Shown here: piece after piece, positions 45,919-56,897 of the stretch
How the letters are laid out: the number at the start of each line of letters is the position of its first letter
Position numbering within the stretch: the first letter of the stretch is position 1
From: Desulfitobacterium dehalogenans ATCC 51507
GTDB lineage: Bacteria; Bacillota; Desulfitobacteriia; Desulfitobacteriales; Desulfitobacteriaceae
Length of the DNA: 64,000 nt
Reading direction: 5' to 3'
NCBI RefSeq assembly: GCF_000243155.2
Contig: NC_018017.1
Location: 3,658,001-3,722,000 of the forward strand
Translations under genes and position numbers: made by a program
The notes under the pieces: generated by a model
Database searches by the model: none
What the model was told of the DNA's origin: nothing
The model's input: only the letters and a program-made list of their open reading frames with translations

Positions 45919-47517
45919 TCAATTCCTCTCTCGAATTCCGACAAGGTTTGTCGATTTTTCCCTTTTTAAACTTTTAATGATACTGTAGCAAATGGCAAAC
46001 ATAATGAACAAGAAGGGAAATCCGCCAAGGATCGAGGCCATTTGCAGGGCATCCAATCCTCCATCCCCGAGCATCAGCAGAAGCCCTGCAGCGGCTCCCA
46101 TAGCTATTCCCCAAAACAGCTTTAAGGGAATCCTTGGGTTTTCGTTCCCTCCGCTGGAGAGCATACCCAGAACAATGGTACATGAATCAGCAGATACGAC
46201 AAAGAAGGTAAAGATGACAAAGATCAAAATGATTGAGGTGATATCCCGGAAGGGAAACTGTTCGAATAAGACGAATACCGCACTGGAAATATCCACACTA
46301 ATGGCGTTGGCTAAAATGCCCTGGGACCCTTGATTAAGCTCAAAGTGCAGGGAAGTCCCTCCGAAAATACCGAAAAAGATCATATCCAGAAGGGTCGGGG
46401 CAATCAAAGCGCCTAAGACAAATTCTTTGATAGTGCGCCCCTTCGAGATCTTGGCGATGAACATGCCTACAAAGGGGGCCCAGGCAATCCACCAAGCCCA
46501 ATAGAATATTGTCCAGCTCCCCAGCCAGCCGCTCTGCTCCACGGGATCCGTCCAGAGGCTCATCGAAAAAAAGTTCTGGATATAAACTCCCATACTGTTG
46601 ACAAACATATCCATGATAAATTTCGTGGGGCCGAACAGAAAGACAAAGAGAAGAAGACCCCCGGTAGCTATTAAACTAAGATCCGAACCTATTTTTATTC
46701 CTTTCAGGTTGGGAGTACAAGCCGAAATCAGATAACAGATAATGACGATAGCTAATATCCCTAACAACAAGGGAATACCCTGAGGAATGCCATAATTATA
46801 GGTAATTCCTGCCGCAAGCTGTTTGGTACCCAGGCCTATGGTGGTTGTCATACCAAAAAGCGACGCCCAAAGGGTAATAATATCAATCAGTTTGCCGAGA
46901 GGACCATAGATTCTATCCCCTAACAGTGGATAAAAGCAGCTGCTCAAGAGCATCGGCATCTTATTCCGGAAAATGATGACCCCCATGGCAAGCCCGATTA
47001 GGACAAAGGAAGCCCAGGCACTGAGTCCCCAGTGAAAAAAAGAGATGGCTAAGGACCATTCCGCTGATTGGGATGGGCTAAGGGCATTCACATAAGCCGG
47101 AGGATTGAGAAAATGATTAATGGGTTCAGCAATGGACCAAAATACCAACCCTACTCCCATGCCACAACCGAAAAGCATGGCAAACCAGGAGAAGGTGCTG
47201 TACTCCGGTAATGTATCCTGGCCTCCCAGTTTGATATCGCCATAGCGGCTGAAGGCTAAGTAAAGGCAAAAAAGCAAGAAAAAAAGAATGCCCACAATGA
47301 ACAACCAGCCCCACTGCTGAATGATGTAATCAAGAATGGTATTCGAGACATGGCTCAGTCCTTCAGAATCAACCACACCCCAAAGGAGAAAACCCACCGC
47401 TAACAGAGCTGAAATGATAAACACATAGGGATCGATATTCCCCAATAGCGCCCAATTGGAGGTTTTGGGCTGCCTATTGAGAACCTTATTGTTTTTAGGA
47501 TTTGCTTCGGTTTCCAT
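45919..47517 (-). CDS. BCCT-family betaine/choline/carnitine transporter (copy 1)
   Basis: 532-residue secondary transporter with 12 membrane segments. Glycine-rich TM3 GCGMGVGLVFWSIAEPINHF, TM4 SLAISFFHWGLSAW, and the TM8 tryptophan box IFYWAWWIAWAPFVGMFIAK followed by ISKGRTIKEF are those of glycine-betaine-type BCCT carriers. ATG 47517 follows GGGGAGA; the frame is open 63 bp further. Divergent from the PocR/AraC regulator and next to corrinoid genes, so it likely imports a methylated substrate such as glycine betaine for catabolism rather than for osmotic balance. Only partly similar to copy 2. Confidence 0.9.
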   Translation of the reverse strand: METEANPKNNKVLNRQPKTSNWALLGNIDPYVFIISALLAVGFLLWGVVDSEGLSHVSNTILDYIIQQWGWLFIVGILFFLLFCLYLAFSRYGDIKLGGQDTLPEYSTFSWFAMLFGCGMGVGLVFWSIAEPINHFLNPPAYVNALSPSQSAEWSLAISFFHWGLSAWASFVLIGLAMGVIIFRNKMPMLLSSCFYPLLGDRIYGPLGKLIDIITLWASLFGMTTTIGLGTKQLAAGITYNYGIPQGIPLLLGILAIVIICYLISACTPNLKGIKIGSDLSLIATGGLLLFVFLFGPTKFIMDMFVNSMGVYIQNFFSMSLWTDPVEQSGWLGSWTIFYWAWWIAWAPFVGMFIAKISKGRTIKEFVLGALIAPTLLDMIFFGIFGGTSLHFELNQGSQGILANAISVDISSAVFVLFEQFPFRDITSIILIFVIFTFFVVSADSCTIVLGMLSSGGNENPRIPLKLFWGIAMGAAAGLLLMLGDGGLDALQMASILGGFPFLFIMFAICYSIIKSLKREKSTNLVGIRERN

Positions 47518-47596
47518 ATCAATTCTCCCCTCTATCTCTGGATTTTTCTCTTGAACTAGCCTATAGTATGTTATAGACACCTGTTGTCATTCTATT

Positions 47597-47608
47597 TTGA
47601 AATTTCAA
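47597..47608. promoter_or_regulatory. 12-bp palindrome in the BCCT1-regulator divergent region
   Basis: TTGAAATTTCAA, perfect dyad, 19 bp upstream of the regulator start and 80 bp upstream of the transporter gene. Candidate site for the AraC-type protein. Confidence 0.35.
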
Positions 47609-47626
47609 GAAACATAGGTGATCAAG

Positions 47627-54451: not shown

Positions 54452-54490
54452 GATAATTCCTCCCGTCATCTTTCATTTTTTCGGACTTGT

Positions 54491-55921
54491 TTATTCTCCT
54501 CCAAGGACCTCACTCCGTTGGGCAATGAAGGCTTGAAGTTTTGCATCTATCTCCTGGTCCAAGGCAGGGGGCACATAGTTCGCCAGAATTTGCTGCCAGC
54601 GGGCATGAGCGCGCTGCTTCGCTTCTAACTTATCTTTTGCCCAACCATCATAGGCATTTCGATCGCTGAGAGTTGGGGTATAGAACTCTCTCTTATGGTT
54701 TTTGCGCGTATGCTTCTGGGTCAGGAAATGTCCCCCAGGGCCTACTTTGGCTATAACGTCATAGGCCATGCCATCTTCATCAAAGGTATAGCCTTTCATA
54801 TAATGGAGAAGCATACCCGCTAATTCATCATCCATGATGAATTTCTCATAGGACATAGCCATGAAATATTGGAGAATTCCTGCCGTATGAAGAACAAAAT
54901 TGATACCTGTCAGAGTCGTTGCCATCAGTGTCATCATAGACTCGTAACCGGCTTGGGCATCCACGGCCTTGGAGTCATTCAACCCCCCTCCGGAACGGCT
55001 GGGTACTCCATAATAACGAGCCAATTGAGCACTTGCCGAGATAAAGAGAGCGCATTCGGGGCTACCGATGGAAAGACTACCGCTGCGCATATCGCTTAAA
55101 GCAGAAGTAGAACCATAAATAACAGGGGTTCCCGGGTTAATGCTTTGGGCTAAAGAGATTCCAGCTAAGACCTCGGCATTTTGCAAGGATAAGGTGCCTG
55201 CTAAAGATGCAGGCCCGGTAGATCCTGCCATAACCAGTGAAGCAATGACCACGGCTTGACCTGCTTCTGCATAAGCCATCAAGGCCCCCAGCATTCTTTC
55301 ATCATATTTCAACGGTGTTAAGGAGTTAATCAAGGAGACTAAAACCGGTTTTTCTTTAATTACATCTTTACCGCCGAAAAGAATGGCTGCCATTTCAATG
55401 GAATCTTCTGCTCTTTTTCTTCCTTCAGCGCTTCCCATGAAGCATTTATCCGAGTTTTTAATCGAACTGTAAAGCATCTTCAAATGGCGAATGCCATCTG
55501 GAATGTCCTGGGGCTCTGCCATGGTGCCGCCGGAGAGATGCATATTTTTGCTAGCCCCGGCTAGTTTGGCGAAATTCTCATAATCCTGCAATGTGGTTTT
55601 ACGCCGGCTGCCATCCAATTCGTAAATGAAGGGTGCTCCATAACCAGGCATGAAGACAATATTATCTCCGCCGATTACCACATTGTTTTCGGGGTTGCGA
55701 GCGTGAAGGATGAACTCTGCAGGTGCAGATTTGAGCTTGGACTCCACGAATTCACGGGTCAAATAGACTCTCTTGCCTTCGACCTTTTGTCCCTCCCGGC
55801 GAAAAACCTCCAAAGCCGGTTCGTATTCAAACTCGATACCGATTTCTTCAAGGATCTTCATGGTATTTTCGTGGATTTTTTGAACTTGGTCCTCGGTCAG
55901 GATATTGTACTTAGGTAACAA
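54491..55921 (-). CDS. mtgB: Glycine betaine:corrinoid methyltransferase MtgB (non-pyrrolysine MttB family)
   Basis: 476-residue MttB-superfamily TIM-barrel enzyme that moves one methyl group from a quaternary amine to Co(I) of MtgC. Recognised by KYNILTEDQVQKIHENTMKI, FMPGYGAPFIYELDG, AEAGQAVVIASLVMAGSTGP, SLAGTLSLQNAEVLAGISLA, YGVPSRSGGGLNDSKAVDAQ and LHTAGILQYFMAMSYEKFI. The frame has no internal TAG, so it lacks pyrrolysine and is not a trimethylamine enzyme; a member of this subgroup from D. hafniense Y51 was shown to be a glycine betaine methyltransferase. GTG 55930 overlaps the ribosome site; TTG 55921 has GGGGTGG at 5-6 nt and is preferred. Product would be dimethylglycine. Confidence 0.92.
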   Translation of the reverse strand: MLPKYNILTEDQVQKIHENTMKILEEIGIEFEYEPALEVFRREGQKVEGKRVYLTREFVESKLKSAPAEFILHARNPENNVVIGGDNIVFMPGYGAPFIYELDGSRRKTTLQDYENFAKLAGASKNMHLSGGTMAEPQDIPDGIRHLKMLYSSIKNSDKCFMGSAEGRKRAEDSIEMAAILFGGKDVIKEKPVLVSLINSLTPLKYDERMLGALMAYAEAGQAVVIASLVMAGSTGPASLAGTLSLQNAEVLAGISLAQSINPGTPVIYGSTSALSDMRSGSLSIGSPECALFISASAQLARYYGVPSRSGGGLNDSKAVDAQAGYESMMTLMATTLTGINFVLHTAGILQYFMAMSYEKFIMDDELAGMLLHYMKGYTFDEDGMAYDVIAKVGPGGHFLTQKHTRKNHKREFYTPTLSDRNAYDGWAKDKLEAKQRAHARWQQILANYVPPALDQEIDAKLQAFIAQRSEVLGGE

Positions 55922-55976
55922 TTGACCCACCCCTTTTTTGAAATTTTTAAGTCAAGTTAAGTCAAGAAAATAAGTT

Positions 55977-56897
55977 TTAGAAAATTTTGAGCAAAGGATG
56001 CTCTGTCGTTCCCATCTTAACCCCGGTCAGCTTGTTGTTATAGGCAATCATGGCATCTGTGGTTGCTATAGCACGATAAACCCAAGGCGCGTTCATCATA
56101 GGACCATAGAGAATGAAATCCGCACCCTGTGTGATCGGGTAAGTGAAGACCGCAGCCCCAGCCACTTCAAAGAAGGGTGTTCCTTTGGAACGCATCTTCT
56201 TCCAGAGATAGACTGCATTGGATGGTGCGCAGCCACCGGGATAGCCGAACTGCTCTTTGACCACATTGATCGCTTCCGTCGTCCAGCTTGAACTGGCCAC
56301 ATCCAACACTCCCGGATCGACCAGGAATTGCTCTACGCCGGCCCGTTTAGCCGCCGCAATCAGTCCCTCTTTATCGTCCTTGCCCTGGAGAAGATCGATT
56401 CTGGCGTTGGGTTTTAAAGCCTTCTTGCTAAAAGCCAGGATGACGGCTGTCTTGATTCCCGCATCTTTGATGGCGGCAAGTTCTTCTTCGGTATAATGTT
56501 CTTCGATGGAGTTATAGATCAACCTTTTCTGAATCTCGGGATCCTTGCCCAGGTTTTTCAAGGTTCCTACCCGAACCTCTGGGCTAATACTATCTAAGAG
56601 GAAGGGAGCAGTAGTATTTTTTAAAATAAATTCTACGTATTTCGTAAGTGCTTCAACAGATTCTCCCAATACATCAATGATAAATGGATTACCTGTTTCT
56701 GCACTTAGTTCGGCTTCCTGATCCAGCAAAGCTTTGGCTGCCTCTTTGTCGAAAACCCCCTTTTGACCATCTGAGACGATCTTATGACCCCGATAAAAAA
56801 TACTACCAATGAGTACTGTTGGGTATTCCCCCGGCTGACCACCAACTTTAACCCCGTTGATGTCATAAACATGTTGTTGAGCAGTAAATTTGAACAT
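55977..56897 (-). CDS. mtgA: Methylcorrinoid:tetrahydrofolate methyltransferase MtgA (MtrH family)
   Basis: 306-residue MtrH-like methyltransferase that takes the methyl group from methyl-Co(III)-MtgC to THF. MtrH landmarks: [90 protein letters not shown] and [22 protein letters not shown] precedes the ATG. First gene of the mtgA-mtgB-mtgC set. In bacteria the acceptor is THF, not tetrahydromethanopterin; this links the island to folD-fchA-fhs. Confidence 0.92.

Follow-up and report, generated by a model that had tools for sequence, protein, structure and literature searches.

A glycine betaine demethylation island in Desulfitobacterium dehalogenans and a conserved pairing of PocR/AraC regulators with a corrinoid protein

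Corrinoid-dependent methyl transfer from glycine betaine has been described in Desulfitobacterium hafniense Y51, in which the cluster DSY3154-3157 brings together the genes for MtgA, MtgB, MtgC and a BCCT carrier (PMC9768040), and a structure of D. hafniense MtgA has been solved (PMC7154762). Here, we analysed a 64,000-nucleotide stretch of the Desulfitobacterium dehalogenans ATCC 51507 genome (NC_018017.1, positions 3,658,001 to 3,722,000; hereafter the window, to which coordinates refer unless otherwise stated), which encodes an island of this type at positions 45919 to 56897. The catalytic part is the same in both species, whereas the published MtgABC reaction leaves out a further element of the island, a PocR/AraC regulator followed by the gene of a second corrinoid protein, MtgC2. 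Our analysis supports the view that PocR/AraC and MtgC2 are conserved functional partners, a pair which is distinct from the catalytic carrier, and in which MtgC2 is more than a spare carrier. We consider it probable that the island is a self-contained MtgABC-type betaine demethylation unit with a built-in two-protein switch, consisting of the PocR/AraC regulator and MtgC2 as a sensory corrinoid protein.

Related arrangements are known from other systems. In the methanol cluster mtaR-mtaC1-mtaC2-mtaB-mtaA of Sporomusa, a PocR/AraC regulator precedes a corrinoid protein of the MtgC2 lineage, as in the island; the enzymes there are MtaB and MtaA for methanol, and the pair and the enzymes run in one direction, unlike in the island. 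CarH and other B12-dependent transcription factors, which are among the fold neighbours of MtgC2, use a corrinoid-binding module of a four-helix and a Rossmann domain in gene control. However, CarH includes a DNA-binding domain of its own and responds to adenosylcobalamin and light, whereas here a methyltransferase-type corrinoid protein would be the separate partner of PocR/AraC.

Organisation and catabolic part of the island

The island consists of the following genes:

55977..56897, minus strand: mtgA, methylcorrinoid:tetrahydrofolate methyltransferase (PF02007; NCBIfam equivalog NF047990, 624.7 bits against a cut-off of 550)
54491..55930, minus strand: mtgB, predicted non-pyrrolysine glycine betaine:corrinoid methyltransferase (PF06253; near-identical to 2QNE and 9YCE; no TAG)
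53807..54469, minus strand: mtgC, catalytic corrinoid protein (NF047995, corrinoid_MtgC, 403.5 against 310; clusters with enzyme-linked corrinoid proteins)
52181..53671, minus strand: BCCT1, glycine betaine importer (equivalog NF047988, 756.7 against 650)
51429..52124, minus strand: DUF1638 protein, probable activase partner in corrinoid reactivation (PF07796)
49566..51404, minus strand: RACE/RamA-like corrinoid reductive activase (Fer2 and RACo linker, middle and C-terminal domains)
48925..49569, plus strand: MtgC2, corrinoid protein of the PocR-linked lineage, proposed sensor partner (PF02607 and PF02310)
47627..48904, plus strand: single-chain PocR + AraC regulator (PF10114, PF12833; open reading frame from 47618, ATG 47627 preferred)
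45919..47517, minus strand: BCCT2, second betaine/choline/carnitine-type carrier (PF02028; NF047988 616.7, under the cut-off of 650; open reading frame from 47580, ATG 47517 preferred)

All nine genes named in the initial annotation were found at these coordinates, and their families were matched by Pfam above the curated cut-offs. The island comprises more than one transcript: the six genes from mtgA to the activase gene form a head-to-tail minus-strand operon, the regulator gene and mtgC2, 20 bp downstream of it, form a plus-strand pair convergent with this operon, and the BCCT2 gene is divergent from the regulator gene. The likely starts of BCCT2 (ATG 47517, minus strand) and of the regulator (ATG 47627) are each preceded by a Shine-Dalgarno-like sequence. 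The 3' end of mtgC2 overlaps the end of the activase frame, including its stop codon, by 4 bp; a 9-bp hairpin at 49551-49574 spans both 3' ends and is possibly a two-way terminator. A tRNA scan returned no tRNA genes, and an Rfam scan at gathering level no riboswitch or other element.

The catabolic part adds a further example to an already known type of system. MtgA and MtgC score above curated cut-offs, MtgB is near-identical to a solved enzyme, and all three are encoded together. MtgB is an open frame without an internal stop or in-frame TAG. Along its full length it shows about 94% identity to the D. hafniense enzyme of PDB entries 2QNE and 9YCE, and 9YCE carries the name glycine betaine methyltransferase in its deposition; the assignment as a non-pyrrolysine MtgB of a glycine betaine island is thereby borne out, and near-identity to the characterised enzyme suggests that it transfers methyl from glycine betaine. 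The description of the locus as lacking pyrrolysine holds for the island but not for the genome (a single contig of 4,321,753 bp), where a second MttB gene at contig positions 591766-593196 contains the one in-frame TAG that typifies the pyrrolysine trimethylamine MttB/MttC system and is accompanied by its own corrinoid gene at 591060. This locus (591060-593196; contig G000, L002) is probably a pyrrolysine trimethylamine system outside the island. The entire island is present in the same gene order in one congener (G003), with 91-98% protein identity (94% for MtgB), and two further genomes of the genus encode neither MtgB nor PocR.

The DUF1638 gene and the second carrier had been taken as signs of a branched design, a reading that neither sustains. 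DUF1638 and a RamA-like activase are co-required in B12-dependent methionine synthesis in Phaeobacter (PMC5764234), and in Ruegeria on betaine the DUF1638 protein increases along with the RamA-like activase (PMC12478193). Because the two are genetically paired in B12 reactivation elsewhere, the position of the DUF1638 gene before the activase gene is to be expected; a sequence search for solved relatives of DUF1638 returned none. Second BCCT genes recur in the mtg loci of other genera, where the relatives of BCCT2 are 54-66% identical to it, and a second BCCT is an ordinary part of such loci. Going by what has been shown elsewhere for close homologues, MtgB would transfer methyl from glycine betaine to MtgC and MtgA from MtgC to tetrahydrofolate, with RACE and the DUF1638 protein holding the cobalt reduced; BCCT1 would bring in glycine betaine, and BCCT2 may serve as a second uptake or product-exchange carrier.

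A corrinoid protein lineage linked to PocR/AraC regulators

MtgC2 is a protein of 214 residues with B12-binding domains only and no fused MerR-type DNA-binding domain. Its cobalamin motif (DxHDxG...S...TTT...GG) is intact and its AlphaFold2 model (pLDDT 87.9) predicts a corrinoid-protein fold; it falls under the cut-offs of the NCBIfam MtgC models (193.1 against 370 and 140.9 against 310). The regulator, the sole PocR protein of this genome, joins a PF10114 sensor to an AraC DNA-binding domain in one chain, and fold analysis likewise identified a GAF/IclR-like sensor fold plus an AraC domain. In the PocR + AraC class, the PocR domain has invariant C52, C65, C87, C110, W94 and W116, several of which are missing from other PocR domains.

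The pairing recurs in other genomes, in counts that represent non-independent events, the genomes being related: across 80 MtgB-anchored loci a corrinoid gene nearly always lies directly after the PocR + AraC gene, and in a class sample, in which 83 genomes were searched for PocR and neighbourhoods were taken regardless of neighbours, a same-strand corrinoid gene is directly downstream of 57 of 59 PocR + AraC genes as against 2 of 60 PocR genes without fused AraC. A phylum sample, chosen by open reading frame length only, gave 21 of 24 for PocR + AraC (14 same-strand and 7 tail-to-tail) and 0 of 17 for PocR without AraC, which brings the latter to 2 of 77 over both samples. The existence of tail-to-tail pairs makes the association independent of co-transcription. 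Nor is the pair bound to one substrate, since the enzymes found within 4.5 kb of 82 pairs include MttB-type (32), MtaB for methanol (23) and URO-D-type (2) enzymes; a further corrinoid gene accompanies 21 of the 23 pairs that neighbour MtaB. Single genomes often have several PocR/AraC-corrinoid pairs next to different enzymes.

Expression data are available for one such cluster. RNA data from Sporomusa sphaeroides show constitutive mtaR and mtaC1, and induction of mtaC2, mtaB and mtaA by methanol (PMC12456013). In the Sporomusa genomes that we analysed, onto which these data were mapped on the strength of that paper's statement that S. ovata has a cluster of the same organisation, the position of mtaR is occupied by the PocR/AraC gene and mtaC1 encodes its linked corrinoid protein. 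The latter clusters with MtgC2 of the window (support 100/100), and mtaC2 adjoins mtaB and its product falls on the enzyme side.

Phylogeny separates the two kinds of corrinoid protein more generally. Three maximum-likelihood trees place the PocR-linked proteins apart from enzyme-linked carriers, with MtgC of the window among the latter. Linked proteins lie on one side in 32 of 33 cases in an earlier tree and in 35 of 36 in the last, with 4 label changes against about 22-23 in shuffles. The dividing branch of the last tree has a support of 92/78, and its linked side also holds two displaced members from loci that contain a PocR + AraC gene. Uniting every linked row in one clade gives a topology that is not rejected (p-AU 0.25), which is no proof of such a clade. 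Linked rows retain the cobalamin motif invariantly (D98, H100, G103, S145, T149, G174, G175), and the residues R66, A96, V134 and P139 mark the lineage, being mostly absent from enzyme-linked proteins. Regulator and partner distances are correlated (Mantel r 0.87, permutation maximum 0.25, species history uncorrected). The Moorella structure 1Y80, the best PDB sequence match for MtgC2, was considered as a solved member of the linked lineage and rejected, as it has N and K at the lineage positions R66 and A96.

PocR and corrinoid modules also occur in one polypeptide. In Candidatus Formimonas warabiya, one protein of 616 residues combines a complete corrinoid protein, a PocR domain and a histidine kinase, and its gene adjoins that of an AraC response regulator:

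L262:3164-5011, minus strand: Formimonas corrinoid-PocR-histidine kinase fusion, beside a sigma-54 gene

Full-length fusions of this kind, among them the relatives L339-L348, are present next to AraC response regulators in 20 out of 398 Bacillota genomes, with identities of 36-70%, and these natural fusions lend indirect support to a direct coupling of PocR with corrinoid proteins. In the mec cassette for dichloromethane (PMC9768040), the gene of a PocR sensor, the histidine kinase MecA, likewise adjoins a corrinoid gene, mecB. This is a two-component system, however, and the corrinoid protein of its type that we included clusters on the enzyme side, unlike the partners of PocR + AraC. At three loci (L260, L241 and L242) a corrinoid gene follows a PocR histidine kinase gene, and L260 is probably a MecA-MecB cassette.

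A sensing model and its alternatives

We propose a model in which MtgB, when betaine is present, would methylate MtgC2, methyl-Co(III)-MtgC2 would act on PocR, the GAF-like domain of the regulator, and the mtgA operon would then be activated through AraC. The methylation state of MtgC2 is the presumed trigger. A candidate site for the last step lies upstream of mtgA:

57031..57046, minus strand: candidate operator, a 16-bp element AAAATAAGCAGAAATG, conserved as a footprint upstream of mtgA (AAAACGAGCATAAATG in Desulfosporosinus)
56997..57002, minus strand: candidate extended -10 (TGT TATATT) of the mtgA operon, at near-fixed spacing to the footprint

The footprint is conserved in 12 loci. Its spacing to the extended -10-like sequence is constant there within a base or two, whereas the start codon lies anywhere between 101 and 268 bp away. 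In shuffled upstream DNA, the motif was matched in 12 of 3000 trials and in none of them with the spacing, and a 27-nt version has no second copy in the genome. The footprint resembles an AraC-type activator site and may be that of the PocR/AraC regulator. Simple promoter and terminator scans gave results close to those of shuffled sequence, or modestly above them, and were set aside. Between mtgA and an MFS gene, a strong inverted repeat with T-runs at 57085-57135 (AAAAAGCTGTTG...CAACAGCTTTTT), also present in the congener, is probably a terminator. Further along the window (58567-63259), a CRP/FNR-like regulator gene adjoins a three-gene molybdopterin oxidoreductase set (catalytic, iron-sulfur and membrane anchor subunits), which resembles a dimethyl sulfoxide-reductase-type respiratory enzyme, as judged from the translations only.

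Several points weigh against the sensing model. Adjacency, co-inheritance and cophylogeny are evidence of partnership and not of mechanism, and the genomic patterns are also compatible with a signal from another property of MtgC2, such as its apo/holo or redox state. The footprint was sought upstream of pocR and BCCT2 and was not found there. Formimonas is exceptional in that same-strand adjacency holds in just 3 of its 6 pairs. The deep branch between linked and enzyme-linked proteins is only moderately supported, the row of the corrinoid-PocR-kinase fusion changes position between trees, and one linked protein, L307, falls among the enzyme carriers. The gene of the latter (L307:2459-3100, genome G094) adjoins a RACE gene and may reflect a recruitment or replacement event.

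Other functions of the pair are conceivable. (i) MtgC2 could be a constitutive starter carrier, supplying the first methyl-tetrahydrofolate through basal MtgB and MtgA or sustaining a low pathway flow, with PocR sensing a small molecule such as betaine. The constitutive expression of mtaC1 in Sporomusa fits this possibility, a small-molecule ligand was the original prediction for PocR, according to work cited in PMC9768040, and the invariant PocR aromatics W94, W116, Y83 and F85 could cage an ammonium group. However, the PocR pocket residues are identical whether the local enzyme is of the methanol, URO-D or quaternary amine type, which suggests a common signal; moreover, corrinoid-PocR fusions require no starter function and the MtgC2 lineage is distinct from the catalytic carriers, so that we regard this explanation as unlikely. 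(ii) The pair could sense corrinoid supply or the redox state of cobalt, such that the operon is on only with active corrinoid at hand. MtgC2 has the full cobalamin motif, the four invariant PocR cysteines might coordinate a metal or harbour a redox centre, and CarH-type proteins provide precedents for corrinoid-controlled transcription. We nonetheless find this improbable, because the presence of several pairs beside different enzymes in one genome favours substrate-specific over global B12 sensing. (iii) A role for MtgC2 as an additional catalytic carrier of methyl groups from another quaternary amine, perhaps fed by BCCT2, as the initial proposal of more than one substrate or a branched design would have it, is very unlikely: MtgC2 is corrinoid-binding by sequence and the island does have two carriers, but it contains no second MttB/MtaB-type (MT1) enzyme, the one further MttB in the genome already comes with a corrinoid gene of its own, the lineage of MtgC2 accompanies PocR/AraC irrespective of the local substrate and occurs beside MtaB, MttB and URO-D enzymes already supplied with carriers, and the Sporomusa pair is constitutive and separate from the induced carrier.

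Implications for corrinoid-dependent gene control

The sensing model may extend beyond betaine. In this wider form, which we judge to be evenly poised, anaerobic methylotrophs would share a general methyl sensor, in which a dedicated, non-catalytic corrinoid protein receives methyl groups from a substrate-specific methyltransferase and PocR recognises it in the methyl-cobalt state, one fold thereby serving methanol, quaternary amines and aryl ethers. A search of the open literature, with subscription papers outside its reach, found no description of a link between PocR and corrinoid sensing; if the sensor reading is true, the pair adds a new type to B12-based gene control. Extra corrinoid proteins in many methyltransferase clusters, such as MtaC1 and here MtgC2, are annotated as spare carriers, and should they prove to be sensors, carriers assigned from gene clusters would have to be reassessed. 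Such a function would also account for the near-alike regulators that serve different methyl donors, and this new type of B12-based control could be tested directly in cultures of acetogens and Desulfitobacterium.

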